Positions 2,981 to 20,260 of a DNA stretch of 64,000 bases are shown here, piece after piece; position 1 is the stretch's first letter, and each line of letters opens with the position of its first letter. Origin of the DNA: Promethearchaeota archaeon. Its GTDB lineage: Archaea; Asgardarchaeota; Lokiarchaeia; Helarchaeales; RDOG01. Below the pieces are notes generated by a model. It saw nothing but the letters and a program-made list of their open reading frames with translations, was not told the DNA's origin and ran no database searches. Where the stretch lies: positions 186,001 through 250,000 of the forward strand of contig RDOG01000004.1 of assembly GCA_011365055.1 (NCBI GenBank), in the 5' to 3' direction. The position numbers and the translations under genes are program-made.

Positions 2981-4222
2981 ATGGCATGGGAAATAAAATT
3001 AAAAATTGAAATTCTAAAGATGGTGATTAAAATAACAAGTTCAACAGAAATAATAAATGGAAATGCAGAGTTTATTACGGCAGAAATATGTAATAAAAAT
3101 AATATAAAGATCCATTGTTCGAATTTGGACCCTCCATTTAATAAAGATAAATTCTATAGGAAATATAAAGATAATTTACCTGAAAATGAGTATTGGACTT
3201 TTATGGAAGATATTTGTAAAAATATATTTAAAATGACTGTTCCAGGTGGATATATTTTTTTCATGCAACGATCTGAAAATGAAGATAAAGTAAAAAACAC
3301 GCTTGAAAATTCAGGATTCACTTATCAAAACACGATAACTTGGAAAAAAATGACTAGCCCGCCTCCAATAAAACATAAATTGGCACCTGCAAAACAAATT
3401 ATAGTCGTAGCGACGAGGGGAATGAAAGCTAGATTGTATAATCCTCTCAGAATTGATGTTGCACCTCCACTTAATTATCAAGTTTCGAACCCAAAAGGAG
3501 TAACTATTAATGATGTCTGGGACGATATAAGGGAGCTAACTAGTGGTTTTTTCGCAGGAACAGAACCGATAAGAATGTCTGAAAATAAAGATATATGTTT
3601 TGAATATAAAATGAACCAGATAAAAGAATTAAAATTGAAAAGATTTCATCTTCAACAGGCTCCAATCGCCCTCCTAACAAGAATAATTCTTTTATCAACC
3701 AAACCTGGGGATTTAGTTTATGATCCTTTTGGAGGAACTGGAACGACTTCGGTAGTTTGCCAACAATTAGACAGAAACTGTATTATAGTAGAAATTGATG
3801 AATTAAATATTAAATGTATAAAAGAAAGAATGAGAATAAACAGAGTTGAGGATAGTCTAATACATAGAGAATATTCTTTCGGAAAGAAAATCGAAATGGA
3901 TTTATTGAAAAAAGGGTTAAACTCGTTAAATAATTTTAAAAGATTGTTAAAGGAAAAAAAATTATCAACGCCCATTTTAAAAAAGGAATTAAATTCGGAA
4001 AAATGGAATTTAAATCAAATTTTTATAGACCATAAAATGACTTTAAAGGATTATTATAGATTTACTCCCGGTATAGAAAATATATGGTCGGATAGACTAA
4101 ATATTGTAAAAGTTCCTAATTTAAAATTAGACGCTACTAGTAGACCAATAGAAAATCTTGAAAGTTTGAGTCCTTTAATAATCTCGGGAAAAAATAAAAA
4201 AAATCTTGAAGCTTTCTTTTAA
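2981..4222 (+). CDS. DNA adenine methyltransferase, beta class (DPPF)
   Basis: SAM-dependent DNA methyltransferase. The catalytic motif IV DPPF is at residues 50-53 and the SAM-binding motif I DPFGGTGTT is at 248-256, so IV precedes I, the order of the beta class (N6-adenine or N4-cytosine; DPPF favours adenine). The target-recognition region would lie between about 100 and 220. About 130 residues after the catalytic core are an extension I do not recognise. Met15 is an alternative start. No clear restriction partner is adjacent; the PD-(D/E)XK-like gene at 16.1 kb is the only nuclease candidate nearby. An orphan or element-borne methylase is plausible. Confidence 0.88.
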   Translation: MAWEIKLKIEILKMVIKITSSTEIINGNAEFITAEICNKNNIKIHCSNLDPPFNKDKFYRKYKDNLPENEYWTFMEDICKNIFKMTVPGGYIFFMQRSENEDKVKNTLENSGFTYQNTITWKKMTSPPPIKHKLAPAKQIIVVATRGMKARLYNPLRIDVAPPLNYQVSNPKGVTINDVWDDIRELTSGFFAGTEPIRMSENKDICFEYKMNQIKELKLKRFHLQQAPIALLTRIILLSTKPGDLVYDPFGGTGTTSVVCQQLDRNCIIVEIDELNIKCIKERMRINRVEDSLIHREYSFGKKIEMDLLKKGLNSLNNFKRLLKEKKLSTPILKKELNSEKWNLNQIFIDHKMTLKDYYRFTPGIENIWSDRLNIVKVPNLKLDATSRPIENLESLSPLIISGKNKKNLEAFF

Positions 4223-4294
4223 TTTCCCATTTTTATTTTTTATTTAAATTTCTTATAACATTTTAATACTAAAATAAAAAAAAGAAAAAATGGA

Positions 4295-5419
4295 CTAATT
4301 TTTGAATGATTCGGAAGCTTCTTCATTAAATTTATTCATTTCAGCCAAAAAACGAATATTTGCAATAATTTTCGCGATAAGGTTATATTTAAAATATCTT
4401 TTCCAATAATATCTAAGAGATACTTCCAACGAATTTTTTCCTATTAAAATTCTTGATAATTCACGTTGTTGTAAAACTCGATAGAGAATCCATTCTGCAG
4501 ACCAAACTGCTGCCATTGAAATATTAAAAGTGTTTTTCCCATACATTGTAGCTTTTGGCAAAAGAGATAAAAGATCGTGAGCAGTTTTCGTTAAAATCGT
4601 TTCATATGTTCGGATATCTATTTTTCTATTCTTTAATTTATAATTGACTTTATCTGAAGTGATAATTTTTGTTACGATTTGCAAAACATAATCTTCGCTG
4701 TTAGTCGTAACAATAATGTCTTTATTAATGGTTTTAATTTGATGCAATAGTTTTCTAATTCCCTTTTTCTTAATTTTTATTTGTCTCTTTTTATATTCAT
4801 TAATTAAATCATTAATTGATATGGGAACATTATATTTTCTGGTTGCCAATAATAGGCAAATTGCTCCAATGTAATGCCACTTTCGTCCAACTTGAATTAA
4901 TTTCTGTGTATAATAATAAATAACCATTCTATAGAAATACAATGCTGAATACTTAATGTTCTTATTTAATTCTAAATGAGATACGATGTCTGTTATTATT
5001 CTCACGTTAGTTTGATGAGTTTTTTTATTCCAATATGGTAAAGTTTTGTTATAATAAGTCTTTAACCGATAAAATTTCTTCTGATCCTTACCATTAATTC
5101 GTTTATTATAAATATCTTTGAAAAATTTAGTTTTAGGTCTATCGATATGGCTGCCTTTGGCTCCAAAAATACTTATAATCGGATTTGCTCCAATTTTTTG
5201 ATTTGAAGAAGCATTAAATATATTTGGATTTTTTGCAGTAGTGACCATAATTTTTCCGCAAACTAGTCCACAATTTCTACAAATATATTCTCCTCTTTTC
5301 ATATCAGGAAAAATTTCAGTTTCTTTTAGGCATTCTGGACAATAAATTTCTTCGTTTTCGTTATAACTTGTAGATTGTTCTTTAGATTTCTTTCTTTTAA
5401 TTGGTACTTCTGTTTCCAT
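4295..5419 (-). CDS. Divergent TFB/TFIIB-like transcription factor
   Basis: The N-terminus has a TFIIB-type zinc ribbon, CPEC then CRNC about 17 residues later, in the usual GEYICRNCGLV setting. The remaining ~300 residues are basic and helical, compatible with two cyclin-like repeats but very divergent from housekeeping TFB. In archaea TFB bridges the TATA-binding protein, DNA and RNA polymerase. Its place in an accessory block suggests a specialised factor that directs transcription of the element, which is an inference. I start at ATG 5419; TTG at 5428 is an upstream option. Confidence 0.75.
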   Translation of the reverse strand: METEVPIKRKKSKEQSTSYNENEEIYCPECLKETEIFPDMKRGEYICRNCGLVCGKIMVTTAKNPNIFNASSNQKIGANPIISIFGAKGSHIDRPKTKFFKDIYNKRINGKDQKKFYRLKTYYNKTLPYWNKKTHQTNVRIITDIVSHLELNKNIKYSALYFYRMVIYYYTQKLIQVGRKWHYIGAICLLLATRKYNVPISINDLINEYKKRQIKIKKKGIRKLLHQIKTINKDIIVTTNSEDYVLQIVTKIITSDKVNYKLKNRKIDIRTYETILTKTAHDLLSLLPKATMYGKNTFNISMAAVWSAEWILYRVLQQRELSRILIGKNSLEVSLRYYWKRYFKYNLIAKIIANIRFLAEMNKFNEEASESFKN

Positions 5420-5890
5420 TAAATTCAACTCTATTAATAATTCATTTCGATTGTCATTTAGCCTAATAATTTATTCTTTGTACAGAAAAACAAAAAAACA
5501 CTGAAAAATGACAAAAAAACTGAATTTAGGTTGTTTAATTAAATCTGTTTAATTTATTACTTTCATTTTTAAATGAATTACTAAATTTAATAAGGACTTA
5601 GAGAAGAGATTTTTTTTCCACTAATGAAAAATTAAATTTTATCCTATATTTTAATTAAAAAATAGAAAGTAGTTTTTAAAATCTTTGAATTAATTATCTC
5701 GATGAATGAGAATTTCTTTTATTTTTGAATAAAATGTCATATCGTCGTTTTATTTTACTAAATAATGAATTAATATGTGATTTGTTTTTGATTTATCTCT
5801 ATCTTTTATTTTTTATTTATTCTAAAAATTAATAAGATGTTTAAAAATCAAAGATAAGATTTTATTAAACTCAGAAGTTTTAATAAAAAT
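5420..5890. other. Divergent intergenic region, no gene seen
   Basis: About 470 bases between the TFB-like gene and the ribbon-helix-helix pair. AT-rich, without an open frame or RNA-like structure that I can support. Both flanking genes read outward, so their promoters should be here; the small DNA-binding proteins next door could act on it. Confidence 0.4.
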
Positions 5891-5897
5891 TCAGGAG

Positions 5898-6284
5898 TTG
5901 ATAATTTTTAATGGTATATTAACGAAAAAAGGAAATTGTAATATTGTAGATTTGTCTCAGGACAAAAAACAAAAGAAAAATGGAAGGCCTGTTCAATTTT
6001 ATGTTCCAGTTCCACTTAAAAAAGTCTTAGATATGAAAATCGATGGAGCAAAGGTCATCAATAATGATGATTATAGAGAATTCATTTTAGTAAACAGTAG
6101 ATCGGCTCTTTTGAGAAACACGTTAGAAGCTGCAGTAGTAATTATATTAGATAAAAAAGATCAATATGATCTCATTCCAAATTATTTAAAAAATAAAATT
6201 GAATTCTTAAAAAAGTTCAAATTTCTTACATATAATGAGATTTTTTCCAATTTTTCACCAATATTTTCAAAAGGAGAGGAATAA
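5898..6284 (+). CDS. Small RHH-like DNA-binding protein, copy 1
   Basis: A protein of about 125 residues whose middle reads RPVQFYVPVPLKKVL, a beta strand followed by helices, as in ribbon-helix-helix proteins. The next gene has the same block (KPVQFYVKKALKDL) with a matching YRxF stretch after it, so the two are paralogs. The fold call rests on pattern only. The start is unclear: AGGAG at 5893-5897 directly abuts the TTG at 5898, so translation may begin at the following ATA or ATT codons (5901, 5904). It precedes copy 2 by one base, so they are cotranscribed. Confidence 0.6.
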   Translation: MIIFNGILTKKGNCNIVDLSQDKKQKKNGRPVQFYVPVPLKKVLDMKIDGAKVINNDDYREFILVNSRSALLRNTLEAAVVIILDKKDQYDLIPNYLKNKIEFLKKFKFLTYNEIFSNFSPIFSKGEE

Positions 6285-6285
6285 C

Positions 6286-6624
6286 GTGGCTTCTGCATCT
6301 GAAACTCAAATAAAAACACCAATTAAAGTAAAATATTCTAAAAGTGGTCAGAAACCAGTTCAATTCTATGTTAAAAAAGCCTTAAAAGATTTACAACAAG
6401 AGATTCCAAATGCAACAATTATTAAACACACTGAATATCGAAATTTTTCCGATTTTTTAAGGGCCTGTTATAAAAAATTTATATATTATTTATTGATTCA
6501 GGAAGAAAAATCCGAAAAAATCCCACCTTATGATAAAAAGAAAATCGAAATACGATCTCAATTAAAAATTATTCCTAAAAAGGATCTAGTTAATGAACTC
6601 ATTCCTTTTTTAGCAGGGATTTAA
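6286..6624 (+). CDS. Small RHH-like DNA-binding protein, copy 2
   Basis: A 112-residue paralog of the upstream gene, sharing PVQFYV and the following helices, with NFSDFLRACYKKF as a likely second helix. The GTG start at 6286 is chosen because GGAGAGG ends seven bases before it; a longer frame runs upstream inside copy 1. The pair could be a heterodimeric repressor for the divergent TFB gene or for the ligase operon, which is inference. No database family is recognised with certainty. Confidence 0.65.
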   Translation: MASASETQIKTPIKVKYSKSGQKPVQFYVKKALKDLQQEIPNATIIKHTEYRNFSDFLRACYKKFIYYLLIQEEKSEKIPPYDKKKIEIRSQLKIIPKKDLVNELIPFLAGI

Positions 6625-6652
6625 GGAAAATGAATTCAAATAAATTTTTTTT

Positions 6653-7084
6653 TTATTTATTTTCGAATTCATCGGATAGGCGATCTAGTCTCTTTGGCTG
6701 CGATTCTTCAAGCCATTTATTTAACGCATGGTCAAAACAAACCGATAATGCTTTTTCGTTTACTTCTTTCTTCCTTAATTCAAGAATCTTATTTCTGAAT
6801 ATTTTCAATTTGCCGAATGGTATTTTTAAATTAACCATTTTATATTCAGGTAATTTTTTAAAACTACCTTTTCTTTCTAACTCATTTATTTTTTCATTCA
6901 ATGAATCTACTTCTTTTTTCGATAAAGGAACCTGTATCCATTTATCAACAATTTCTAATATACAAAAATCTTTTATTTTTCCTTTGAATTTCTTTGTTCT
7001 TTTTATTTTAACGTTTAATTCAATTAATATTTCTTTAAGAATTCCCCATTTTTCGTTTAAAATCCAGATGATTTGTCGGTCCAT
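6653..7084 (-). CDS. Hypothetical, possible RHH-like DNA-binding protein
   Basis: A 143-residue basic protein. Its second half reads VNLKIPFGKLKIFRNKI and then VNEKALSVCFDHALNKWLE, a strand plus two helices that again resembles a ribbon-helix-helix unit. An open frame on the opposite strand is rich in Phe and Ser and looks like a shadow. The gene faces away from the ligase operon with 123 bases between them, so it could autoregulate and control that operon. Function is inferred only. Confidence 0.55.
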   Translation of the reverse strand: MDRQIIWILNEKWGILKEILIELNVKIKRTKKFKGKIKDFCILEIVDKWIQVPLSKKEVDSLNEKINELERKGSFKKLPEYKMVNLKIPFGKLKIFRNKILELRKKEVNEKALSVCFDHALNKWLEESQPKRLDRLSDEFENK

Positions 7085-7195
7085 AAAAAAAATTATGTTT
7101 TTATTTAATAAAAATCGATTGATGAATTTCGTAGTTAAAAATTGTAGAATTTTAAATATGTTATGTAGTTAATTATTCATTAAAAAAGGCGGATT

Positions 7196-7200
7196 GGTGA
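7196..7200 (+). promoter_or_regulatory. GGTGA ribosome binding site of the ligase operon
   Basis: GGTGA seven bases before the ATG at 7208. It supports that start and is the same type of site used by many genes in this window. Confidence 0.7.
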
Positions 7201-7207
7201 AGAATGA

Positions 7208-10186
7208 ATGATTGAACAAGATATAATAATAAATAATAAAAACGCTCACAAGCAAACATTTAACGCTAAATTACATCCCATTCAGAAGGCTTTAGAAAAA
7301 TTTAACACTGATTTTCATCTAGTTGAATTAATCAGAAAATATGAGAAATTAAAAAACCAAAAATTATCAAAAATGGAGATATTTTTAATAGGTCAATTGC
7401 ATCAAATTTATCTTTTTGACGAAGTAATTTCTTTTTGGGAAGTAGATAAGATTTTAAAATTCACGCAACAAGTTGCTATAAAAGAGGCAAAGGATAAGAA
7501 AACCATAAGGTTTTATCCGAATTTAAGTTCATCTTTTCCAAATATTAAAAAAGGAATTATTACGAAAAAATTTACATCCACTCAATTAGAAATTGAATAT
7601 CATACTCCAAAGGAAAATATTATTCTATATAAAGAAATTTATTTGAATTTATTAGAACCAAAGAAGAGGGAAGATTATTTTAAGTTATTACACGAATTTG
7701 CTCAAAAATATGATGTTCCATTTAAATATTTAAAACGATTTGGCAATAGAATTTGTCAACCGGACCTAAAAAATGAATATGTAGTATGTCGGGAAACCAT
7801 ATATCAGGGAGCGGATAGATTAGGATTTTATATTTATGAAGATCAAAATGAATTTGTTGTATTTCATATTGGAGAAAATAATACAGAAGCTATAAAAATA
7901 TTAACCTATTTAAGCAAAAATGGATTATCTCCGATATTATTTGAACAATGTTTTATTAATTCGGGATTTTTAAATCAATTAGGGAAACAACTTCAACGAC
8001 TAAGAGATAGAAAAATAATAATACAAGAAACGTATCTTTCTGATAAGAAAGTTTTTGAAGGAAAGGAGAAGGATTATAACATTTTCAGAATTAAAGTTTA
8101 TTTTTTTAATAAATTTAAAAGTATTCAAAGGGCAAATAGAATTAATGGACCGTGGATCCTACAGATTGAAAGGTCGAATTCTATTATTGATTCAGAAACA
8201 GAAGATAGTGAAAAATTTAATAAGTTACATGAAATTATTTTAAAAATAATGAGCCAAGATTATTTGAAAATATATGAAAAGGCTGCAATTAATAATTTTT
8301 ACTATAAAATTATTATGAATATCACTAAAATTACTAGGAAATTTGATAATTCAGGACAACTCATCGGGTACTTCGAACCTGAAACAGATGCTGAGAGGGA
8401 ATCTAATAAATACTTATTTCATGGAGCTAGTTGTTCAAAAGGTTTTTTTATATATGATAAAAAAAAGGATGAATTTGGTTCCAATCCTAGTTTCTTTAAA
8501 GAATTGGTGGATAAAATTCATGGCTTTTTGGATGAAAAATTCTACAAATCACAAATGGGTACCTTAAATCATAGACCTGCCTTTGAGACGGTTTTAAAAT
8601 GGTATGAAAAGAATTTTTATGACGTAGAAGGAGGATTTGGTCATCCAAAACTTCATTTTAATACTCATTATGGACTCGCTTCAAGATGGATTGAAATAGA
8701 TTGTTGGATAAAATACACGGAAATAATAGATAATTATCGAAGTAATAAACTTTTATTAATTAGTGAAAAATTTGGGGGATATAATGACATAGATATTGAA
8801 AATATTAAATTAGTAGTAGAATATGAAAAAGGACAAATAGAAACCAGATTAAAAGCTAAAGGTTATCAGATGATTCCATCAATGTTAGTAGAAGAAATAA
8901 CACATACCGCAGAAAATAATGTTTTATTTATTTCAATTAATGAAGAGAGGTTTAATTACAAGAAAATTATCCCAGATCGGACCTTTGATACTGGAAATTT
9001 AGAGGTGATGTGCAAAAAAGTAGTTCAAGATTTTAATAAAATGCGATATTCAAGTAAGGATCTTCCAAATATCAGAGAACTTTTCATTTCAGCTGTGGCA
9101 GAATATAAAATTGATGGAGAATGTGGAGTTATTATTACTGATGATGAAGGAGTTATTTATTCCCAAGTAAAAAATACTGAAACAACGATACAAGCTGCAG
9201 GATCAAAGGGAAACGCAAATCTATGGAAATTGCCTAACATTATTTTGGAACAATTTAAGAAATTTCCTAATTCGACGTTTAAAGTTGAACTTTTAATTTC
9301 TCCAGGAATAAAAGAAGATACCGAAAAAAATAAAGAAGAAAACGGATATGTCGATTTAGATGAAGATGATGACATAGCTCCTACTTCAGTGGTGATATTA
9401 GATGTATACAGATTTAAAGGTACAGACTACACAGATCCAAAATTCGCCAATGCCATTCAAAGAAGGGAATTATTAGAAAAATATTTTCGAATAATGGATA
9501 ATAGGCAAGTTATCAATAGCCAACTATTATGTATACCAAAAGGATTAAAAGTTTATAATACTGAAAAGTCGATGAAGGACCTTTATCAATTCATTATTGA
9601 TACTTTTGAAAATGAAGAATTATATCCCGTATATCTTGATGGTATTTTTTTAAAATTTAACGATTATTCTTTAAGGAAAAAGAATTGTGAAAAAACAACG
9701 TTAAAAATAAAAAGTATTGAAAGCATGAGTTATGATCTTTTGTTATATGCAATTAGAAAGGCAGGGAATAACCAGATTTGGGGGATTTTTGTAACTTATG
9801 ATGATGAAAATAATATTTATTTAATTGGTACAGGAACAGTCGCTAAAAAATATTTATATGGAATAGTAAATCCAAAAGATACTTCCCAAATTATAGATAA
9901 AAACGTGGTTTCTAATATTCCTCGGAGTAAAATGGATTGGATTGACATTTCTGATTTTGATATTAGAATGCAGGTACAGTTTTCTCCTATTCGATTTACT
10001 AGAATCATTCAACGTGTTTATCCGATTAAGAGACGAAGTGGTTATAATTATACAGGGTTGGATTCACCTTCAACCTTTTTGTATAATCCAGAAAAAGGAT
10101 GGAAGGGAATTTGGATAGCGCAGGAGAAGATTAAAGAGCATTTTAAAAATATTAAAAGGAAACTATTCGAAGATAGGAGGGAATGA
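7208..10186 (+). CDS. Giant ATP-dependent DNA ligase-like protein
   Basis: A 992-residue protein. Residues ~620-990 carry the nucleotidyltransferase signatures of ATP-dependent DNA ligases: motif I KIDG with the nucleophile Lys634, motif III with Glu694, a IIIa-like stretch with RRELLEKYF, motif IV YLDG (811-812), motif V LKIK (833-835), then an OB-like part with GTGTV. The first ~620 residues are not the usual ligase DNA-binding domain; a winged-helix-like stretch lies near 240-300. It would seal nicked DNA or possibly RNA. It begins a four-gene operon and its stop is one base from the next start. Ligase assignment is good; the substrate is unknown. Confidence 0.8.
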   Translation: MIEQDIIINNKNAHKQTFNAKLHPIQKALEKFNTDFHLVELIRKYEKLKNQKLSKMEIFLIGQLHQIYLFDEVISFWEVDKILKFTQQVAIKEAKDKKTIRFYPNLSSSFPNIKKGIITKKFTSTQLEIEYHTPKENIILYKEIYLNLLEPKKREDYFKLLHEFAQKYDVPFKYLKRFGNRICQPDLKNEYVVCRETIYQGADRLGFYIYEDQNEFVVFHIGENNTEAIKILTYLSKNGLSPILFEQCFINSGFLNQLGKQLQRLRDRKIIIQETYLSDKKVFEGKEKDYNIFRIKVYFFNKFKSIQRANRINGPWILQIERSNSIIDSETEDSEKFNKLHEIILKIMSQDYLKIYEKAAINNFYYKIIMNITKITRKFDNSGQLIGYFEPETDAERESNKYLFHGASCSKGFFIYDKKKDEFGSNPSFFKELVDKIHGFLDEKFYKSQMGTLNHRPAFETVLKWYEKNFYDVEGGFGHPKLHFNTHYGLASRWIEIDCWIKYTEIIDNYRSNKLLLISEKFGGYNDIDIENIKLVVEYEKGQIETRLKAKGYQMIPSMLVEEITHTAENNVLFISINEERFNYKKIIPDRTFDTGNLEVMCKKVVQDFNKMRYSSKDLPNIRELFISAVAEYKIDGECGVIITDDEGVIYSQVKNTETTIQAAGSKGNANLWKLPNIILEQFKKFPNSTFKVELLISPGIKEDTEKNKEENGYVDLDEDDDIAPTSVVILDVYRFKGTDYTDPKFANAIQRRELLEKYFRIMDNRQVINSQLLCIPKGLKVYNTEKSMKDLYQFIIDTFENEELYPVYLDGIFLKFNDYSLRKKNCEKTTLKIKSIESMSYDLLLYAIRKAGNNQIWGIFVTYDDENNIYLIGTGTVAKKYLYGIVNPKDTSQIIDKNVVSNIPRSKMDWIDISDFDIRMQVQFSPIRFTRIIQRVYPIKRRSGYNYTGLDSPSTFLYNPEKGWKGIWIAQEKIKEHFKNIKRKLFEDRRE

Positions 10187-10187
10187 A

Positions 10188-13100
10188 TTGTTAGATGTCG
10201 AAATATTAAGAGATGATTCTCTTCAATCACATCCGTCTACAATTTATGAAAAAGTAATTGAAGAGATAGTATTTACTTACTGGCCTGAATTGTTATCAAG
10301 AAAATATTCAAATAAAAATGATTTGGATATTTTTAGAACCAGATATGATTTGATTGAGGAACTTTTAGCATTAAGATTGAATAAAACCGAAGAAAATAAT
10401 TTTAAATCCATTTTCAATTCGTTGAATTTACCAGTTGATTATGATAAGAGTTATATATTATCAATTCTTAAAAATTTAATTAAAATTCGGCCTTATTCAA
10501 TAGAACTTACATTTTTTAATGATTTTGCAATTGAATCTTACAAAAAAAATCCACCAAGTGACCCTACAGACGATGAAATTATTTTATCTTTCTATAACAG
10601 GATTCCAACTAAAGGAATAAATCTAGCAAATTTAAAAAATAATACAGAAATTACTAAAGGAGATAAAATACTATGCGATAGAATTGTTAAAAAGGGAATT
10701 GATATGGGGGTATTTTTCCTATTAAAACAAAAGAATTTTACTTCAAGGAAAACCTATTCCATAACTAATATTTATAATGAAAAGGGTGCAAAAAAGATAA
10801 ATGAAAGTATAGAAGATATAAAACCCCTTGCCTTAGAAGAAAGAAAAGAAATAGAAAACAGTCCCAATGATATGATTAACTTGGCTAAATTCATCTATTT
10901 AAACTTAGACATTAAGAAATATCGTTCTAAACCTATAAGATTTACTAAAATTAAGAATTGGTTTTTCTTCAGAAAGGTGAAATCAAAGATATTATTAGAT
11001 ATTCTACAATTAGGAGAGAAATTAGGTTATTTTAAAATAAAGGAAATTCCATTTGGGGCTAAAGATACGATTATTATTAAAAAAAATTTAAATAAATCTG
11101 CTGAAGAGAAAATTAGACTTATTCAAAATCAAATTGACGAAAAAAAAATAAATAATACTAATAATTACAATAAAATTCGATATGAAAACGATAAAAAAAT
11201 TATTAAAATTTTAAATAAATTAAAAATCTTTCTTGTTGAACCTCGTTCTGATAAAGAAATCAATGATTTAGTTAATAACGATGTAAATTACAATGAAATT
11301 ACGAATGTTGAATTTGATATTGAAAAAAAGGATTATACCTTCACGGATATAGATGGGAGATTAAAATTATTACTTAAATTAATAGCTAATAAAAGTATTA
11401 ATTCTAAAATATATCTTAGAAGAGATATCATATTTAAAAAATCAGATGAATTAGGTTTCTTTTGTCCATTTGAAAATGCCCTTTTTCATTTTTCAATCCC
11501 GTTATCTGCTTCTTTTGAGGAAAATCAGAAAAGATATAAGAAAAATCATAAATATTATACAATTATAGAATATTTATCTCATATTTTTAAATATGGAATG
11601 TCTCTAAATTTATTAGAAATTTTTAGATCCATGTTAACAACGAAAAAATACAAACTTAGTGATAAAGAAGTCACAAAAAACTTACTCAATTATAATTTAA
11701 TTAATTTTCAGATGATTAAAAATGATTTAAATTCCTATTATTTAATCACAAGCAAGTTTAAAGTTATTTCAAATAAACAGATTAATTTAAGAAATAAATT
11801 TTGGTTTTCAAAATATGAGACTAAAAAGAGATTCATAAGGTACATTTCAAATAAAATCTTGGATGGTGGAGTAAAAAGAATTACTTTTATCCCCACAAAA
11901 TACAGGAAATTTTTATTTGATGTTAGTTATGAATATAAAATATTAAGGTATAATATGACTGATAAAAAAAGACCAATCATTCAGGATTATTCACAAATTT
12001 CAAAACAATATGCCTGTTTACACGTTTCAATGGGTCAACTTAGTATATTTTTTGATAGAAATATATCGTATGATATTGTGGAAGACGAATTTAGGGAATT
12101 TCTGGAATATAAATTTTCAAGAGCAAGACAAGGACAAATTAATGGTCCTCTTTCATTCGAAAGATTGATAGAATATTGGAAAGAGAGCGGAATTGATGTT
12201 ATTTATTCAGCATTTACCCATGGAAAAAATTTATCACAATGGGGAGGATTAAAATTCCTGGTCCAAAAAACCGTCAAAAATTCAAAAAAACCATATACTT
12301 CAACAGTGGAAGTTGAATTTGATGGATATACAATTTCGAGAAGAAAAGATGGACTTCTTTATCTCTCTTTAATACAACATAAACACGGAACGTATAAAAA
12401 AGGAGATTGCATAGATAGTGTACGTGTTATTACTATAAAGGAAAATAAGAAAAAGTTAGAATATTATCGCCATCTTAAAGGATTTCACTTGTTGAAGCGA
12501 ATCAATCAATTTGAAGTTGTTTATTTAGTCAATAATAATTTAGGCTTTAAGGAATCAACAAATATCTTAAAAAAGAATAATTTTAGAGAAATTGATTATA
12601 ATACTATTGGTTATGAACCAATTGATGAAACCGATTATGATTATTCAATAAAATCAAATTTAAGAAGTAAATTAACTCAAACCTTCAACAACCCCGACTT
12701 CTTAGTTAATGATTATCGTAAAATTTTCGATAAACTTGACAAAGATAACATTATTGAATTTAAAATGAATGGTATTTGTGCAGGTATTTCAATAGAATCT
12801 GATGGGAAGATATTAATTTCGTTAAAAAATAGTGATACCGAAATAATTCTTCCTCCAAATTATGAAAAAGCCTTTAAGTTATATAAAAATTGTTCATTTA
12901 AATTAGAAATAATCTTTAAAGATAATAATACATTTCAAAAATATCAATCAATGACGAGAGATCACAATGTTGATTTTTCTATATTAAAAGAAAATATTTT
13001 TATCGTTATAACAGATATTTTCAAATTTAATGGAGAAAATGTGGATCTTGAAAATTCTTCTTCAAGAAGAAGAATATTAGAAGAGACATTTTTAATTGTA

Positions 13101-13748
13101 TCTAATGGAAATGATTTAAGGAAATATTATGACCAAGATTTTGTTAACTATTTAAAGTTCTGTGGAAGAAATCAGATACTTTGTATTGCTCCAGGAATTA
13201 AGTTTAGCAATACGAAAGAAGGAATAAAGAATCTTACAGATTTTATAGAAAAATACAAATCATTAGTTATATCGGAAGAAGTGGGGTCTTCAGAAAACTT
13301 TTATCATAATATTGACGGCTTCATTATAAAAAAGGATAGTTATAACCTTTTTAATACCGCAATTTCTAGATACGAAGCGATTAAAATTAAAACATTTGAG
13401 ACTTTTTCTCTTAGATTATGGGCAGTCATTAAACAAGACCACTCAAGTTCTGATTTAGGCCTATTAGTCGCTTTAAAATCAAGTGGAAATCCCAAATTTT
13501 TTCCAATTCAAATTACTCAAATTCCTAAAGGGATCGCCAGGAAAGCAAAGTGGCAAATTCTAAGTAAGGAAATCATATATGAATGTGCATTTCCAAAAGG
13601 ACTCTATAAAAATACTATATCAAACGTTAAAAGATATGGTTTGAGACCAAATGCGAATATTGATAATATAAATAAAATATTAAGACATTATAAAATTCCT
13701 CCCGAAGCGATAAAATTATTCCATAATATATTAGAAGGAAAAATATAA
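10188..13748 (+). CDS. Divergent ligase-like paralog with KxNG motif I
   Basis: An 1186-residue paralog of the preceding protein. Motif I reads FKMNG, keeping the nucleophile (Lys859) but with Asn861 in place of the usual Asp. Glu907 (III), SSRRRILEETF (IIIa), IDG at 1042-1044 (IV) and KIK at 1066-1068 (V) remain. Similarity extends upstream: both have a G-x-(L/I)-N...FE...DV...F-x-H-x-K block before the ligase domain. A winged-helix-like stretch lies near 130-200. The Asp-to-Asn change could alter specificity (some RNA ligases vary here) or give a partner with weakened catalysis. The start may be TTG at 10188; AGGAGGG lies just upstream. Confidence 0.72.
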   Translation: MLDVEILRDDSLQSHPSTIYEKVIEEIVFTYWPELLSRKYSNKNDLDIFRTRYDLIEELLALRLNKTEENNFKSIFNSLNLPVDYDKSYILSILKNLIKIRPYSIELTFFNDFAIESYKKNPPSDPTDDEIILSFYNRIPTKGINLANLKNNTEITKGDKILCDRIVKKGIDMGVFFLLKQKNFTSRKTYSITNIYNEKGAKKINESIEDIKPLALEERKEIENSPNDMINLAKFIYLNLDIKKYRSKPIRFTKIKNWFFFRKVKSKILLDILQLGEKLGYFKIKEIPFGAKDTIIIKKNLNKSAEEKIRLIQNQIDEKKINNTNNYNKIRYENDKKIIKILNKLKIFLVEPRSDKEINDLVNNDVNYNEITNVEFDIEKKDYTFTDIDGRLKLLLKLIANKSINSKIYLRRDIIFKKSDELGFFCPFENALFHFSIPLSASFEENQKRYKKNHKYYTIIEYLSHIFKYGMSLNLLEIFRSMLTTKKYKLSDKEVTKNLLNYNLINFQMIKNDLNSYYLITSKFKVISNKQINLRNKFWFSKYETKKRFIRYISNKILDGGVKRITFIPTKYRKFLFDVSYEYKILRYNMTDKKRPIIQDYSQISKQYACLHVSMGQLSIFFDRNISYDIVEDEFREFLEYKFSRARQGQINGPLSFERLIEYWKESGIDVIYSAFTHGKNLSQWGGLKFLVQKTVKNSKKPYTSTVEVEFDGYTISRRKDGLLYLSLIQHKHGTYKKGDCIDSVRVITIKENKKKLEYYRHLKGFHLLKRINQFEVVYLVNNNLGFKESTNILKKNNFREIDYNTIGYEPIDETDYDYSIKSNLRSKLTQTFNNPDFLVNDYRKIFDKLDKDNIIEFKMNGICAGISIESDGKILISLKNSDTEIILPPNYEKAFKLYKNCSFKLEIIFKDNNTFQKYQSMTRDHNVDFSILKENIFIVITDIFKFNGENVDLENSSSRRRILEETFLIVSNGNDLRKYYDQDFVNYLKFCGRNQILCIAPGIKFSNTKEGIKNLTDFIEKYKSLVISEEVGSSENFYHNIDGFIIKKDSYNLFNTAISRYEAIKIKTFETFSLRLWAVIKQDHSSSDLGLLVALKSSGNPKFFPIQITQIPKGIARKAKWQILSKEIIYECAFPKGLYKNTISNVKRYGLRPNANIDNINKILRHYKIPPEAIKLFHNILEGKI

Positions 13749-13766
13749 TCGAAAAGAGGTATATAA

Positions 13767-14819
13767 ATGATGAATCAAGAAATATTGGAAAGAAAACGCC
13801 TTTTTTATCAAAAAGAGAGATTTTTATATGATCTTTTAAAGAAATATAAAAGTAATTCATGCCTTCATTGCGGAGATAAGGGCAAAATAGATAGTCGAAC
13901 CAGATTATGTAATAATTGTATAACAGATCCCGATAAATTGGAATTAATTTCGATAGTAACAGAATATTTATCAATGAAAAACAAAAATAAAAAAGCGATA
14001 ATTAAAACTCAAATTCAAGAACAGGTAGAAATACCAGATAATGGCATTCAGGATATTAATATCAAACAAAAAAAATGTTACTTATGTAATATTATTTTAG
14101 ATAAAAATGACGATTTTTTATGTAAAAAACACCAAGAATTGTTTTTTCCCGATAAAAAAGGGAGAAATAAAAAGATAATAAAGGAATATAGAGAAAGATT
14201 AATTAAAGAAAATAGATGTACTTCTTGTAAAAAGCCTAACATAAGAGGATTTCTTTTTTATTTTTATATTTTTTATGAAATTATTGCTTCTCTTCATGAA
14301 GGAAAGAAGAAATTAGTGTACAGAAAGAAATCGTGTTTCTTTTGTATTAATAATCATAAAATTCGAAGAAAGATAAAAATAAAGAAAAATATATGTTCTA
14401 ATTTACATTGTAACAATAATTTGAGCAATTATTCGATTCAAAAAGGATTTAAAACTTGTTTAACGTGCCGCGAAAAGAATAGACAGCGTATGAAAAGAAA
14501 AGACATATGTAGTCGATGCCATGGAATATTAACACAAAAGCAAATTAACATTTCAATTAGAAAAATTGGAAAGAACAATATACACGTTCATTGTAAACGA
14601 ATTCAAATGATTAATAGCCGTTTAAAGTATTTTTTAAAAGATAAAATTATTAAAGATTTTAAATTAGATATTAGATATAATGAAATTTCGTCCCAAGTTA
14701 AACAAGAATTAAAAAATTTGTTATGTTTTTATTATATTTTTCAAGAACCTTTTCTCCCTTGGAAAAATTATCAATTCAATTATCAATTCTTTATCAATAA
14801 ATTTCTTGAGGTGAATTAA
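13767..14819 (+). CDS. Cys-rich multi-zinc-finger protein, copy 1
   Basis: A 350-residue basic protein with at least five Cys clusters: CLHC...CNNC near the start, CYLC, CTSC, CFFC, CLTC and CSRC followed by HVHC. The C-terminal ~100 residues form a module (CxxC...HVxC, then YYIFQEPFLPWKNY) that occurs once here and twice in the next gene. I know no family with this combination. GAGGT precedes the ATG, and the stop overlaps the next ATG. Likely zinc-binding nucleic-acid-binding protein working with the two ligases; that role is inferred from position. Confidence 0.65.
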   Translation: MMNQEILERKRLFYQKERFLYDLLKKYKSNSCLHCGDKGKIDSRTRLCNNCITDPDKLELISIVTEYLSMKNKNKKAIIKTQIQEQVEIPDNGIQDINIKQKKCYLCNIILDKNDDFLCKKHQELFFPDKKGRNKKIIKEYRERLIKENRCTSCKKPNIRGFLFYFYIFYEIIASLHEGKKKLVYRKKSCFFCINNHKIRRKIKIKKNICSNLHCNNNLSNYSIQKGFKTCLTCREKNRQRMKRKDICSRCHGILTQKQINISIRKIGKNNIHVHCKRIQMINSRLKYFLKDKIIKDFKLDIRYNEISSQVKQELKNLLCFYYIFQEPFLPWKNYQFNYQFFINKFLEVN

Positions 14820-16006
14820 TGAGTATCGATGCAAGAAAAGAAGAAATCATTGAAATAAACAATAAAGAAGTAGCATTCGAATTATTTGATATTTTGGAAG
14901 AAATGAATAAAAGAATATCGATAGATAATTTATATAATTTATCTATTGAAAACGTTGAAATTGGTTCAGCTCTCAAAAATATAGGTTTAATAGAATTAAA
15001 AGAATATCAAAAAGAATATCAAGAAAAGAAAAAGAATAAATATGGAAAGAAATATCGAAGTAGACTAATAAAACAAAATCTATGTACTTGGTGCAAAAAA
15101 GAAAAAATTAGGGGGATTACATTTCTTTTATACCAATTTCACAGATTACTTGTATGTTTAGAACCAAATTATTCTAGAAAATTAGTATATAATAAACAAA
15201 AATGCTATTTCTGTTCGGAGATGGTCAAAAATAAGCGAAAGAAAAAACTAATTAATAATATTTGTATTAGAAATGGTTGTCATAACAGGCTTTCAAACAG
15301 TAAATATAAATCTTGTGATGATTGTAGAAGAAAAGATAGAAACAGAATAAAAAATAGAAAAAATAAATGTTTTGCATGTCATAAATCGATGAATTCTCGT
15401 CAAATAGAGATTTCTAAGAAATATATCAATAAAAGAAATGTACATTTAAAATGTCATAAACAGCAGATCATAAAAAATAGGACAAAGTATATCATAAAAC
15501 AAAAGATTTTGAGAGAAAAAAATTTAAAAGTGCAATATAAATCTATTAGTTCTAAAATTAAGAAAGAATTAGAAAAGATATTAGCAATATATTTCATATT
15601 TCAAGAGCCATTTTTATCGTGGAAGAAATATCGATTTGATATTGATAAATTTTATGAATTAAATTTTCCAAACTACGCACCTGAGCTAAATGATAGGCTG
15701 ATTTGTGTTAGATGTAAAAAGGAATTATCAGAAAAAGCGATAAGATTATCAAAAAAATATTTTGGAAAAGACAATATTCATGTTCAATGTTACAGGAAAA
15801 TTCTTATCAGTAATCGCAAAAAGTACATTTTGATGCATAAAATTCCTAAGAATTTAACTTTTGGAATGAGATTGGACAAAAAAACTAAAAAAGAGCTAAA
15901 AAATATCTTAACTTTATATTATATCTTTCAAGAAAATTTTCTTTCCTGGAAAAAATATCAATTAGACCATCAACTCTTTTGTCAAAAATATTTATCTCCA
16001 CTCTAA
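14819..16006 (+). CDS. Cys-rich multi-zinc-finger protein, copy 2, with tandem repeat
   Basis: A 395-residue paralog of copy 1, joined to it by an ATGA overlap. Cys pairs are at 89/92, 129/132, 149/154 and 166/169. A ~112-residue module then occurs twice: C184/C187...H209/C212 with FIFQEPFLSWKKY, and C296/C299...H321/C324 with YIFQENFLSWKKY. CxxC...HxxC suggests a treble-clef-like zinc site followed by a helical hydrophobic part. A long basic stretch, KNKRKKKL, suggests nucleic-acid contact. It is the last gene of the operon; a T-rich tract follows. Function not recognised. Confidence 0.65.
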   Translation: MSIDARKEEIIEINNKEVAFELFDILEEMNKRISIDNLYNLSIENVEIGSALKNIGLIELKEYQKEYQEKKKNKYGKKYRSRLIKQNLCTWCKKEKIRGITFLLYQFHRLLVCLEPNYSRKLVYNKQKCYFCSEMVKNKRKKKLINNICIRNGCHNRLSNSKYKSCDDCRRKDRNRIKNRKNKCFACHKSMNSRQIEISKKYINKRNVHLKCHKQQIIKNRTKYIIKQKILREKNLKVQYKSISSKIKKELEKILAIYFIFQEPFLSWKKYRFDIDKFYELNFPNYAPELNDRLICVRCKKELSEKAIRLSKKYFGKDNIHVQCYRKILISNRKKYILMHKIPKNLTFGMRLDKKTKKELKNILTLYYIFQENFLSWKKYQLDHQLFCQKYLSPL

Positions 16007-16012
16007 ATTCAC

Positions 16013-16040
16013 TTTTTCTCTTTTTTTTCTTTATTTTCCT
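16013..16040 (+). terminator. T-rich terminator of the ligase/zinc-finger operon
   Basis: A run of T-rich sequence (TTTTTCTCTTTTTTTTCTTT) begins seven bases after the operon's last stop. Archaeal transcription often ends at such tracts without a hairpin. The next genes are on the opposite strand, so the site lies between convergent units. Confidence 0.5.
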
Positions 16041-16123
16041 TGGTTTTTCGATATAAGAATATTCGAATATTTTTCTGGGAGGTTTACAGCAGATTTTATA
16101 ACTTGATTCCTTATTAAAGTAAA

Positions 16124-16678
16124 TTATAATAATTGATTTTTTAGCCAAATTGCTAATTTTTTAAGAGTTTTTTCTTTTTCATCAATTATATTTGAATATT
16201 CAAAACAATAGGTTTTTGGAGATGATATTATTTTTTTATTTTCCCAATTTTCACGTTTACTTTCTAACCATGCTTCATTAGCTTTAACCAATAAATTGTC
16301 TCTTAGGAATTCAGGTTCTATTATCATGAATTGCACGTTATTTTCTCTAAAATATTTATGCATTTGATTACTATATTTAGATGGTTTTTTAAACATGTAA
16401 TCGGAAGCGAATATAATAAAGAAGTATTTTCCCTTTTTAATATACACATTAGTCCATTCTCCATCTTGTATCTCATTTTCCAAAATATTTACTTGATTTT
16501 CTTGAATTTTTGTCCCACCACCCGGTGATTTTACCTCTAAATATAATCTTTTTGTTTCTAATTCATTATATATTAGAACATCAAATTCTTTTGCGATGAA
16601 TTTACATTTGAGTCCAATTTTTAAGACAAATGGTTTGATTTTCTTAAAGAATTCTTCTTCATATTTATTGTATGTCAT
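16124..16678 (-). CDS. PD-(D/E)XK nuclease-like protein
   Basis: A 184-residue protein. FDVLIYN (Asp33) followed by YLEVKSPG (Glu48, Lys50) matches the D...(D/E)-x-K core of restriction-endonuclease-fold enzymes, with Glu7-Glu9 in the first helix. About 130 further residues are unrecognised. GGAAGAGAT precedes the ATG. It may be a nuclease acting with the methyltransferase at 3 kb or with the ligase operon, but it lies on the opposite strand to both. Confidence in the fold is moderate; activity is not shown. Confidence 0.6.
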   Translation of the reverse strand: MTYNKYEEEFFKKIKPFVLKIGLKCKFIAKEFDVLIYNELETKRLYLEVKSPGGGTKIQENQVNILENEIQDGEWTNVYIKKGKYFFIIFASDYMFKKPSKYSNQMHKYFRENNVQFMIIEPEFLRDNLLVKANEAWLESKRENWENKKIISSPKTYCFEYSNIIDEKEKTLKKLAIWLKNQLL

Positions 16679-16733
16679 TATATCTCTTCCAATTAACGTA
16701 TGAGAGTCATAAATTTTAAAAATATTTTTTAAA

Positions 16734-17165
16734 TTACCATTTAAAAAAATTCTTAAAGCGTTGAATTAAAGATATTTTCGATTTTCTTCGATAATCCCAA
16801 TATTCATCATGATGATAGTATAATTCAAATTCTTTCTCGTATTCTTTTACCCAATCAAAATTAGTGATGTGTTTCATAACTTTTTTAACGCTAACTTTTC
16901 TCGTGTTATCCGGTGAACCATCTTTCTTCCAATTAAAAAATGATTTTGCATGATTAAACAAATTAAGAAAGTTATCGGGATCATCAGGATCAATATCGAA
17001 AAATATTGATACGGAAGTTATCTCTTTTAAGTGAACTCTTCCTCCATTAGGAAGAGGTTTTACTAATTTAGCAGACCCAGTTGCTAAAAGAGTTTTTCGA
17101 AATCCCCCTCGTTCAATTAAAGCGTTTTTAATTTGTTCAACATAAATATTATAAATTTCAATCAT
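16734..17165 (-). CDS. Hypothetical protein
   Basis: A 143-residue protein, not recognised. It has a central strand-rich part (VHLKEITSVSIFFDIDPDDP) and a tail rich in aromatic and basic residues (YYHHDEYWDYRRKSK). It lies 55 bases upstream of the PD-(D/E)XK-like gene on the same strand, so the two may be cotranscribed. No membrane segment is seen. Confidence 0.55.
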   Translation of the reverse strand: MIEIYNIYVEQIKNALIERGGFRKTLLATGSAKLVKPLPNGGRVHLKEITSVSIFFDIDPDDPDNFLNLFNHAKSFFNWKKDGSPDNTRKVSVKKVMKHITNFDWVKEYEKEFELYYHHDEYWDYRRKSKISLIQRFKNFFKW

Positions 17166-17429
17166 TATGGGATATTCTATTTGTTAAATATAAATATCTT
17201 ATCTAGTTTAAAGCCACAGGAACACTTCGTGAAAAAATAATTCACCAAGATCTTGAGATGAGTCCTATAGGGTTTTGAAATATGCGAGAGTTGTGAGGCT
17301 AAGGATTTGAAAGAAAGCTTAGATTAATTAAAATGCTGAAATGCTTAAAATATAAATGAAATTGAATATAATATACTTTTATATGAATTATCAAATAATT
17401 AATATAAGGAAAGGAAGAGATTTTAAATA
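17166..17429. other. Intergenic region with a possible gene remnant
   Basis: A patch at about 17207-17278 is less AT-rich than its surroundings. It can be read on the plus strand as a protein-like tail (ATGTLREKIIHQDLEMSPIGF, then stop) without a start codon. This may be the end of a decayed gene at the edge of the accessory block. No tRNA-like fold was found. Confidence 0.25.
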
Positions 17430-17768
17430 ATGAAAACCGAAAAATGCCCCCATTTTGATTATTGCATTACTCCCCAATTTTGGGTTAAGGAAAAAGAAGA
17501 TTTTATTAAGGAAGTTTGTAAAACAGCTCTTTCTACAAGTTGTACGCATAAAAGTGGTATGGATACTCACTTTCATCAATTAAATGAATCAGATATACAA
17601 AGTGAAATTCAAAGAATGAAAGAATATTTGGATTATTTAAATAAAAAGAAAAGTAAAAAAGACCCAAAAGTTGATTTTTTTTCCAGATCAAAGAATCAGA
17701 ATCAAATTGAGAATAATTCTATATCAAGAACCATTAAAGGAAAAGAAAATCTTAAAGATTGGGAATAA
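17430..17768 (+). CDS. Small Cys-containing hypothetical protein
   Basis: A 112-residue protein with Cys at the N-terminus (CPHFDYC, then CKTALSTSC) that could bind a metal or iron-sulfur cluster, followed by a charged helix (about 55-75) and a polar tail. A GGAAAGGAAGAG site precedes the ATG. Not recognised. It marks the point where the gene content becomes more chromosomal. Confidence 0.6.
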   Translation: MKTEKCPHFDYCITPQFWVKEKEDFIKEVCKTALSTSCTHKSGMDTHFHQLNESDIQSEIQRMKEYLDYLNKKKSKKDPKVDFFSRSKNQNQIENNSISRTIKGKENLKDWE

Positions 17769-18126
17769 ATTTAGAGTAAATATTTATCAGAATTAGATAA
17801 AAAATAAAAAAAAGAGACTTTTTTAGTCTAAAACATGTTTTTGATTAAAAATGAATCAATAAAACTATTCTTTCCTTCAATTTATTAGACTTATTATTCC
17901 ACCTCACTTGTAAATAGTAGTTAAAGAAATCTCACTTGGTAGATCATATTAAAATACAACATATTTCTATTGTCATACTGTACATTTTTCGAGAAGGAGA
18001 AGATCCATTAGTGAAAAGTATCTTTTGGAGGGTTAAATTTGATTTCGACCCATTTTTGGAGAGCTCCTTCGGACATTTTTTCATTACCAAGAGCAAGGAA
18101 TTAGCGTTGACTGGTGGAACGTGGGA
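17769..18126. other. Intergenic region with a possible 39-aa ORF
   Basis: About 360 bases. A weak candidate frame runs from GTG at 18011 to TGA at 18128-18130, with AGGAGA at 17995-18000 before it; it ends inside the next gene's start. Its product (KSIFWRVKFDFDPF...) matches nothing I know. Otherwise nothing is seen. Confidence 0.3.
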
Positions 18127-18861
18127 ATGAATGATGATGTTTTTGATCGTAGGCATCGGAAAACGGGAGTGAAACTTAGAGATCTTTATAATAAAACAAA
18201 AAATGTAGCAAAAACAGCAAGATTGATTTTAGATGTTATGAAAGACATCCGGAACGAACGTACACCTCAATGGAGCAACTCATTATATTCAGTAGTAATG
18301 CTTCATACTTCAGGTCTGTTTAATTTTTTTGTTGAACCGAGTAATTACGAAGTATTAGGATCTGTTTGGGATGGCTATAATAGCAAAAGATATCATGGAA
18401 TGAAGGATCATTGGTTTATGTTTTATCCAGACCTCCCTCTCATTAATTCAATGTCTTTATCTTCAAGAAGTTCATTCATGAGCAGGCTGGGAGGGCTTAC
18501 AAGTGGTAAGGCACTTTGCATTCATACGATTGAAGAACCTGCATTAAGATGGATTAAGAACGACATTCCAGAAGCTTATCCAGCAGTAGTTCAATATTGT
18601 CGGGAAATAGGCGTGCCCGTCCCCCGAATGACTTTAGAATGTAAAGTTGGAGGAAAAGATAATTTATTAACATCAGATGAACAATTAAATAGAACATATC
18701 TTGAAGGAACAAGGGTAACAAGAGAAGATATTAATGTAACCGAAGAGGATTTTTATAAAGGATTTTTAACGAATATACAGGATGATGCCCCTTTGGATGT
18801 AAAAGTAACGGAAAAGAACTTGTTATCGAAAAATTTTGGTAAGTATGCTATTTTTTATTAA
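18127..18861 (+). CDS. Hypothetical protein upstream of corrinoid methyltransferase genes
   Basis: A 244-residue soluble protein that I do not recognise. It begins with a charged stretch (DRRHRKTGVKLRDLYNKT) and has a middle with several aromatic residues (YHGMKDHWFMFYPDLP). ATG 18127 is preceded by GGTGGAACGTGG; GTG 18121 is another possible start. It reads in the same direction as the URO-D/corrinoid pair with a T-rich gap of about 145 bases, so a shared function is possible but not shown. Confidence 0.6.
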   Translation: MNDDVFDRRHRKTGVKLRDLYNKTKNVAKTARLILDVMKDIRNERTPQWSNSLYSVVMLHTSGLFNFFVEPSNYEVLGSVWDGYNSKRYHGMKDHWFMFYPDLPLINSMSLSSRSSFMSRLGGLTSGKALCIHTIEEPALRWIKNDIPEAYPAVVQYCREIGVPVPRMTLECKVGGKDNLLTSDEQLNRTYLEGTRVTREDINVTEEDFYKGFLTNIQDDAPLDVKVTEKNLLSKNFGKYAIFY

Positions 18862-18935
18862 TTTTTTTAAAGGATTTGAATAAGAAACCTAAAATTTTTG
18901 AACCGCCCCATGCAATCTTTATGATAGATTCTGAA

Positions 18936-18951
18936 TTTTTTTTCTTTTTTT
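18936..18951 (+). terminator. T-tract downstream of the hypothetical gene
   Basis: Two runs of T (TTTTTTTTCTTTTTTT) about 75 bases after the preceding stop and before the URO-D gene, consistent with an archaeal terminator that would separate the two transcripts. Confidence 0.4.
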
Positions 18952-19006
18952 AATAACTCAATTAAAAGTACATTATAATGAAAGATGTAATTATAATCTA
19001 CTATAT

Positions 19007-20260
19007 TTGGAAAAATTAAACGAAATATTAAAATATAAATTGAAAAAAAATATTAGTTGCATGCCAAATTTAATAGTTACCACGCTTAAAGCTTTAATTA
19101 AAGGTAAACTGGGTATCGGCAAGCTTAATGGGTTAGAGCGCTTTATACTCGCTCAATTGAGTCTCCCGGACCGAGTACCGACATTACTTTCTGCCACAAA
19201 TATTGAACCATATATGTTAGACCCGAAATATAACTGGAAATTAACAGTAGAAAGCATTGAAGCAAATGTTGAGTTAGCTGATATAGTTTGCGAACGTTTT
19301 GATTGTGATATGGTTGCCATGCCAATATGGCAAGGTCTAATGCCATTTGGTGCGTGTGAAATGGGCACAGAATTTAAAATCTCTGAAGAACGGGTGCCGT
19401 ACTCCGTCGGGTATCCGATTAAGACTAAAGAAGACATAAAAAAGATTAAACTTCCAGAGGAAGCTACTGGTCATCTTAAAATGTATTTTGATTTAAATTT
19501 GGAAATACAAAAACGCCATCCTGAATTGTTTCTACCGCTAACTCTTGATGGTCCTTGGGATCTGGCAATGTTGCTGAGAGGAGATGCCAAACTGCCCATG
19601 GATATGCGTCTTCACAAGGATTATGTAGAAACGGATGATCCAATTCGGAAAGAAAAAATAAGAAAACGCGGTGATCCGGATATTTATCCAGCAATTATGG
19701 AATTGACAACCCAAGCAGTGATCAGTATATTTGACTTGGCAGCTAAATATGGGTTATCGCTTATGGGTTCCACAATGATTGATCAATATACAGCTCCTCC
19801 GATTATGGGACGTGAGGACTTTGTTAAATATGTATTGCCCTATATAGAGAGAGTATGGCGGCACCATAAGAAGAAAATAATGATTGTGGCTCCTTGTATT
19901 TCACCCATGCAAATGCGAAAAATCCTCGAGACCGAGCCAAAGGGGATCAATCATCAGATTTTATGGTCAAACTATACTTTCCCGACCACACCAGAAGGTA
20001 TTACTTTACCGGAGTATGATCGTTTCGCATTTGAGCTTGCCAAAGAATACAAGAAGAGTTTTTCGTATATAGTTCATGGTAAGTTTTTAAGAGATTCCAC
20101 AGAACAAGAGATCGAAGCCCTAGTCAAGCGGGTATGCACGCTGGCTAAGGAAATACGGGTGTCTATTTCAATTGCGATTAGCGCTGTACCGCCAGGCACG
20201 GATTTGGAGAAAATAAACTATCTATTCAAGAAGGTGCAAGAATATGGAAGATATAAATAA
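19007..20260 (+). CDS. URO-D superfamily corrinoid methyltransferase
   Basis: About 417 residues of the uroporphyrinogen-decarboxylase fold, which includes methyltransferases moving methyl groups to or from corrinoid proteins (MtaA, MtbA, CmuA). Coupling to a corrinoid gene, which overlaps its end by 17 bases, supports methyl transfer over haem synthesis. The zinc ligands expected of CoM methyltransferases (HxC and a late GCG) read VAPC and SAVPPGT, so only one Cys remains; it may instead take methyl groups from a donor. The TTG at 19007 is uncertain, and Met19 or so is another start. The DNA here is richer in G and C than its neighbours. Confidence 0.78.
   Translation: MEKLNEILKYKLKKNISCMPNLIVTTLKALIKGKLGIGKLNGLERFILAQLSLPDRVPTLLSATNIEPYMLDPKYNWKLTVESIEANVELADIVCERFDCDMVAMPIWQGLMPFGACEMGTEFKISEERVPYSVGYPIKTKEDIKKIKLPEEATGHLKMYFDLNLEIQKRHPELFLPLTLDGPWDLAMLLRGDAKLPMDMRLHKDYVETDDPIRKEKIRKRGDPDIYPAIMELTTQAVISIFDLAAKYGLSLMGSTMIDQYTAPPIMGREDFVKYVLPYIERVWRHHKKKIMIVAPCISPMQMRKILETEPKGINHQILWSNYTFPTTPEGITLPEYDRFAFELAKEYKKSFSYIVHGKFLRDSTEQEIEALVKRVCTLAKEIRVSISIAISAVPPGTDLEKINYLFKKVQEYGRYK

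Follow-up and report, generated by a model that had tools for sequence, protein, structure and literature searches.

A stretch of 64,000 nucleotides from contig RDOG01000004.1 of a Promethearchaeota archaeon (hereafter the window) carries four open reading frames, A to D, which are tightly packed on the plus strand between positions 7208 and 16006. The open reading frame listing places A and B 1 bp apart and B and C 18 bp apart, while C and D overlap by a single base within TAATG; AGGAGGG lies 6 nt upstream of the TTG start of B. The four-gene operon that an initial annotation of this DNA described is confirmed, as are its coordinates and its two gaps, with the correction that the ATGA overlap reported there is in fact the one-base overlap in TAATG. 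Indeed, both duplications recognised in that annotation are present within the operon, A and B being paralogs (E 6e-17) and C and D likewise (E 8e-51), and the reported lack of a polymerase or helicase also stands, as neither was among the matches of A to D in Pfam (E up to 1) or NCBIfam (E up to 0.1). Sigma-70-type promoters are unexpected in archaea, and the counts of sigma-70-type and terminator-like sites at this locus did not exceed those in shuffled sequence. The operon is real, rare and unusual, and its features are as follows.

7208..10186, plus strand: gene A, 992 aa, ATG start; N-terminal module, middle part and putative C-terminal ligase-type nucleotidyltransferase core
7358..8596, plus strand: N-terminal module of A, residues 51-463, shared with P0008, a stand-alone 385-aa Helarchaeota protein
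9101..9712, plus strand: motif core of A, residues 632-835; I EYKIDG (K634), III FKVE, IIIa VILDVY, IV DGIFLK, V LKIK
10188..13748, plus strand: gene B, 1186 aa, TTG start; long N-terminal part and putative ligase-type core
12756..13391, plus strand: motif core of B, residues 857-1068; I EFKMNG (K859), III FKLE, IIIa VITDIF, IV DGFIIK, V IKIK
13767..14819, plus strand: gene C, 350 aa, 19 Cys, seven CxxC
14493..14816, plus strand: CCHC finger unit in C; C248, C251, H273, C276 (alignment A9)
14819..16006, plus strand: gene D, 395 aa, 16 Cys, five CxxC
15353..15673, plus strand: first CCHC finger unit in D; C184, C187, H209, C212 (alignment A9)
15692..16003, plus strand: second CCHC finger unit in D; C296, C299, H321, C324, with weak zf-PARP resemblance

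The paralogy of A and B extends over A368-906 and B597-1149, some 540-550 residues at 22% identity. Both contain motifs I, III, IIIa, IV and V of the covalent nucleotidyltransferases, in order and with a lysine nucleophile, an arrangement reproduced by 0 of 20,000 shuffles of either sequence and shared by no other of the 22 window open frames of at least 350 aa. The motif residues are conserved between the two proteins despite the low overall identity; motif V lysines occur in both, and the motif scan locates the motif I lysines at K634 and K859, as annotated. The search pattern was composed after inspecting A and B, permits Asp in motif IV and Asn in motif I, and recovers four of nine Asgard ligase cores; therefore it serves as a test of order and chance rather than as an independent discovery. 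At the family level, the ATP-dependent DNA ligase family PF01068 scored whole B at 25.2 bits, below its cut-off of 26.2, and residues 785-1186 of B at 28.4 bits (E 1.6e-6), above it. The annotation of A and B as paralogs with C-terminal ATP-ligase motifs thus holds for the motif sets in both, whereas the family cut-off is reached only by the C-terminus of B and A has no match. On this evidence A and B are probably covalent nucleotidyltransferases of ligase type, an assignment with good but not final support, and their catalytic type appears fairly well supported.

The other duplicated pair, C and D, is 45% identical over 211 columns, and the C-terminal ~100 residues of C recur as a second copy within D (47%, E 1e-23). 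Their description as CxxC-rich paralogs is borne out, since the seven CxxC motifs of C were reached by 1 of 10,000 shuffles and the five of D by 2 of 10,000. In all three finger units the putative zinc ligands, C-x2-C-x21-H-x2-C, are invariant. Two scans of protein fragments matched the last unit of D, alone of the three, to zf-PARP (PF00645; E 0.065 and 0.098), the family of the PARP-type finger by which PARP and DNA ligase III sense nicks; its best score of 14.4 bits misses the 39.3 bits needed. When a profile of the three units was compared with one of 19 Asgard zf-PARP fingers (from 20 fetched loci, one of which the extraction pattern missed), the two aligned along the domain, including CxxC and HxxC, with an hhalign score of 20.5 (P 0.0039), which was equalled by 6 of 200 column shuffles with the Cys and His columns fixed and by 1 of 200 full shuffles. 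Of 227 Asgard genomes, 54 contain a finger that passes the PF00645 cut-off, as against none of 14 control genomes, and the fold is therefore available within the phylum; the two Helarchaeota genomes discussed below (G001 and G002) are not among the 54. We consider the C and D fingers to be CCHC fingers with a hint of the PARP type, the likeness being a faint resemblance of non-members. Matches in the Protein Data Bank (PDB) to the finger alignment (Tim15, E 0.32) and to the last unit of D (one, E 1.1) were taken as chance. Several of the Asgard zf-PARP fingers (L032-L051) are terminal in proteins of ~230 aa, and inspection by eye of 6 of the 20 fetched loci (ORFs of at least 150 aa, first residues) found no ligase neighbour.

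The only clear relative of any of the four proteins in the collections searched is P0008, which its database entry names a Helarchaeota hypothetical protein and which is encoded in genome G002. It aligns with A residues 51-463 (27% over 423 columns, E 5e-36), covers the N-terminal half of A and ends ahead of the ligase core; a shorter match, of 133 columns, links it to B (E 7e-6). The initial annotation had regarded homologs standing alone as ordinary DNA ligases as evidence against its view; no such homolog was found as described, P0008 having no ligase domain, although the B core itself distantly matches the family of ordinary DNA ligases. By eye the N-terminal module has what may be winged-helix-like stretches, which is a reading and not a result; in the model of A only residues ~141-180 reach a predicted local confidence (pLDDT) of 50-70 in an otherwise low-confidence prediction. 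Three further matches to the N-terminal profile were dropped: those in G131 and G141 (E 0.001 and 0.005; L011, L012) are short ORFs that look alkyltransferase-like by eye, and that in G146 (E 0.009) contains stops. The L011 and L012 ORFs match the same part of the profile, 89-163, probably by chance and possibly through a common winged helix.

Beyond P0008, the distribution searches returned almost nothing. In the protein database A and B found only themselves (7,994 and 7,992 most word-sharing candidates scored; C and D were not queried), and the two-row N-terminal profile A5 found only P0008 among 4,381 candidates. No relative was detected in IMG/VR (queries A1, A2, A5, D and B), by tblastn in INPHARED (A, B and D) or in PLSDB (A and B), in none of which C alone was queried; the genome contig collection (A1) gave none either. 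Among the 227 Asgard genomes, matches occurred in one for A, none for B, two for the C/D profile, four for the N-terminal profile A4 and none for the A/B C-terminal profile; these zeros are weak because the first pass of the scans sends few candidates per genome to scoring. Both matches to the C/D profile were dropped, that in G097 (E 9.4e-4) falling in an ORF of 64 aa that runs antisense to one of 341 aa and that in G211 (E 0.007) having six internal stops. The annotation's remark that no described system has this make-up agrees with the open-licence papers listed on Asgard viruses, defence, mobile elements, ligases, zf-PARP and anti-phage ligases, in whose titles and abstract beginnings no such operon is described.

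The interpretation we favour, while holding it tentatively, is that this operon of an Asgard chromosome could encode a strand-sealing complex of several subunits, with a possible use in genome conflict. In such a complex A and B would use their C-terminal lysines, K634 and K859, to accept AMP from ATP, would activate the 5′ phosphate of a nucleic acid and would ligate it to a 3′ end, while their long N-terminal parts, read as winged-helix DNA-binding modules, would position the enzyme. C and D would bind breaks or ends through their CCHC zinc-finger repeats and bring in or orient both ligases. We infer from the sequence features ATP-dependent ligation, a DNA substrate, DNA binding by the N-terminal parts, break sensing by C and D, and involvement in either repair or genome conflict; a two-plus-two arrangement, A with B and C with D, is suggested by the duplications together with the packing of the operon. 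The interpretation given in the initial annotation is partly supported, while the heteromeric pairs, nucleic-acid end joining and element replication that it proposed remain hypothetical.

Several observations weigh against this interpretation. Ligases typically require Glu in motif IV, which is indeed E in all nine aligned Asgard ligases, whereas A and B both have Asp there and B in addition has Asn in motif I, departing from the ligase consensus. Gene A matched no Pfam or NCBIfam family, fragment scans included, and neither A nor B matched a ligase DNA-binding or OB-fold Pfam family, distant versions of which are possible. A hidden Markov model (HMM) of the nine Asgard ligase cores scored B within the range of 400 shuffles (1.7 bits for the whole sequence; best single domain 7.9, the top shuffle reaching 8.0); A was absent among the matches listed. 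The A/B C-terminal profile aligned only weakly with seven Asgard ligases (probability 10.5%, 52 columns), with control profiles of the N-terminal and middle parts at 0.1 and 0.2%. AlphaFold predictions for full A (3-row alignment, pLDDT 31.8) and for its C-terminal 412 residues (2-row alignment, pLDDT 30.2) were unusable, and a PDB sequence search gave no match to A or B at E up to 10. For the fingers, the comparison with Asgard zf-PARP fingers reached a probability of only 8.7%, and the 21 residues between CxxC and HxxC in all three units lie outside the zf-PARP range given in PMC3094755; on this spacing and the PF00645 score, zf-PARP membership was rejected. Lastly, the four genes were found together nowhere else in the collections searched, so that no second copy of the operon links them. 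The initial annotation had counted such an absence against itself; it is undecisive, since the proteins themselves are orphans in these collections.

Among the alternatives, RNA repair is unlikely, if still credible: A and B would be RNA ligases resealing cleaved tRNA or other RNA and C and D would bind RNA, perhaps as counter-defence against RNA-cutting immunity. The five motifs are common to DNA and RNA ligases, and RNA ligases are freer at motif I, where the K-x-N-G of B deviates from the K-x-D-G of DNA ligases; the lack of a DNA-ligase DNA-binding domain among the Pfam matches of A and B points the same way. However, the sole supported family match is to the DNA ligase family PF01068, a Pfam scan of the C-terminal parts of A and B, run with HMMER filters on, gave no RNA-ligase family up to E 10, and no supported RNA end-processing family was found among 20 proteins scanned from 116-25509.

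Of similarly low probability is a defence system whose ligase-like domains would adenylylate or bind broken nucleic acid as sensors or effectors and would not act in repair. Helarchaeales are reported in PMC11291487 to carry 9.1 defence systems per genome, and a DNA methylase (Pfam) is encoded close by, at 2981-4222. In addition, the N-terminal module of A recurs in G002 within a set of five genes on one strand (L006:12445-19341), which encode a 132-aa protein, P0008, a 151-aa partial copy of the beginning of P0008 (E 2e-13), an HNH-like protein (PF14279 at E 0.0098, below its cut-off) and a 1269-aa protein matching PADLOC PD-Lambda-4_A (E 3.4e-25). This set is a candidate defence operon of Helarchaeota in its own right; PD-lambda-4 is named together with a P-loop NTPase in PMC10952713. 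Against a defensive role for A to D, none of them has a supported PADLOC match (best E 0.025), and the module is common to the two loci at just 27% identity, with unlike partner genes.

That A and B form a non-ligase pair of covalent nucleotidyltransferases, for example capping-like or protein-adenylylating, or a catalytic A with a regulatory B, is distinctly improbable. An Asp in motif IV is also seen in capping enzymes, B has Asn in motif I, and the C-terminal OB part with motif VI was not recognisable in the alignment with Asgard ligases; yet the Pfam match is to a ligase, no capping-enzyme family was found in Pfam for the C-terminal parts, and both proteins retain the motif V lysines. Finally, it is very improbable that the four genes are mere neighbours, left by two tandem duplications that arose independently in a variable part of the chromosome: no second locus with all four was seen in the collections searched, and the overlapping small genes directly upstream, at 5898-6284 and 6235-6624 (plus strand), are also tandem paralogs (28%, E 3e-10) and a third duplicated pair, so that duplication may simply be frequent locally, but the 1- and 18-bp gaps, the one-base overlap and the common strand argue otherwise.

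The chromosomal setting bears out the Asgard host named for this DNA. A GTPase at 51949-52860 is 72% identical to its counterpart in one Helarchaeota metagenome-assembled genome (L001 in G001) and 65% to that in a second (L002 in G002), and gene order around it is kept for four genes of the 48-54 kb region in the first and three in the second; therefore the window resembles a Helarchaeota chromosome. GC content is 25.6% at 2300-17800 and 28.8% at 28000-64000, with third-position GC about as elsewhere, and an inverted 23-nt pair (2306-2328 and 17385-17407, 83%) lies near both edges of the low-GC stretch. The repeats in 1-24000 are short and imperfect (74-95%), there is no tRNA in the window and no Rfam match in 1-20000, and an empty site did not come to light: the regions surrounding NRDD and the TFIIB-like gene in G001 and G002 have no gene order in common with the window. 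An integrated element at this locus is unproven. Several neighbours are of separate note. The minus-strand gene at 4295-5428 encodes a TFIIB-like protein of divergent sequence (65 bits in NCBIfam, where 384 are required) with long matches at 29% identity in G001 and G002, and is perhaps a Helarchaeota TFB paralog. At 16124-16678 (minus strand) a 184-aa protein with EVKSPGG looks like a PD-(D/E)xK nuclease by eye and has no supported family match. A 246-aa ORF at 18121-18861 (plus strand) matches only part of mostly ~380-470-aa frames, 33 in G001 and 16 in G002, and is therefore apparently truncated in the window.

If strand sealing is correct, the archaeal phylum closest to eukaryotes would possess a four-subunit ligase assembly with nearly no relatives, whose break-sensing zinc partner is provided in trans. 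If a defence or counter-defence role is correct, strand-joining activity would be added to that repertoire. An ordinary outcome, such as a decayed or very fast-evolving ligase pair, would urge caution in inferring function from motif sets.

Among known systems, PD-Lambda-4 defence is comparable in that, in G002 only, an A-type N-terminal module stands in tight same-strand order with a PD-Lambda-4_A-like gene, whereas the 16 window proteins scanned against PADLOC matched no PD-Lambda-4 model. Bacterial and archaeal Ku-LigD non-homologous end joining (NHEJ) resembles the operon in that a ligase is encoded beside a candidate end-binding partner, but A to D match no Ku or polymerase family in Pfam or NCBIfam. 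As a separate observation, G001 (L030, G001:C3 ~1101759-1102313) encodes a 276-aa ligase (PF01068) adjoining a protein of 263 aa that is Ku-like by eye, a candidate archaeal NHEJ pair. With ATP-dependent DNA ligases (PF01068; Asgard L023-L029), A and B share the five ordered motifs, and the C-terminus of B passes the Pfam cut-off; unlike them, A and B are far larger, lack a recognisable DNA-binding or OB domain, have Asp in motif IV and, in B, Asn in motif I, and are adjacent paralogs with zinc-protein partners. With the PARP-type finger of DNA ligase III (PF00645), C and D share CCHC ligands, several copies, a ligase-like gene encoded alongside and a profile alignment along the whole domain, whereas their ligand spacing of 21 is outside the family range. 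A more specific proposal, which we consider rather doubtful, is that the operon encodes a split end-joining machine, hitherto undescribed, in which two dissimilar ligases would form one complex with two dissimilar zinc proteins that sense breaks. Such a machine would parallel the ligase III/PARP-finger arrangement, having been assembled independently of it, and would serve in conflict with mobile DNA or be used by it.

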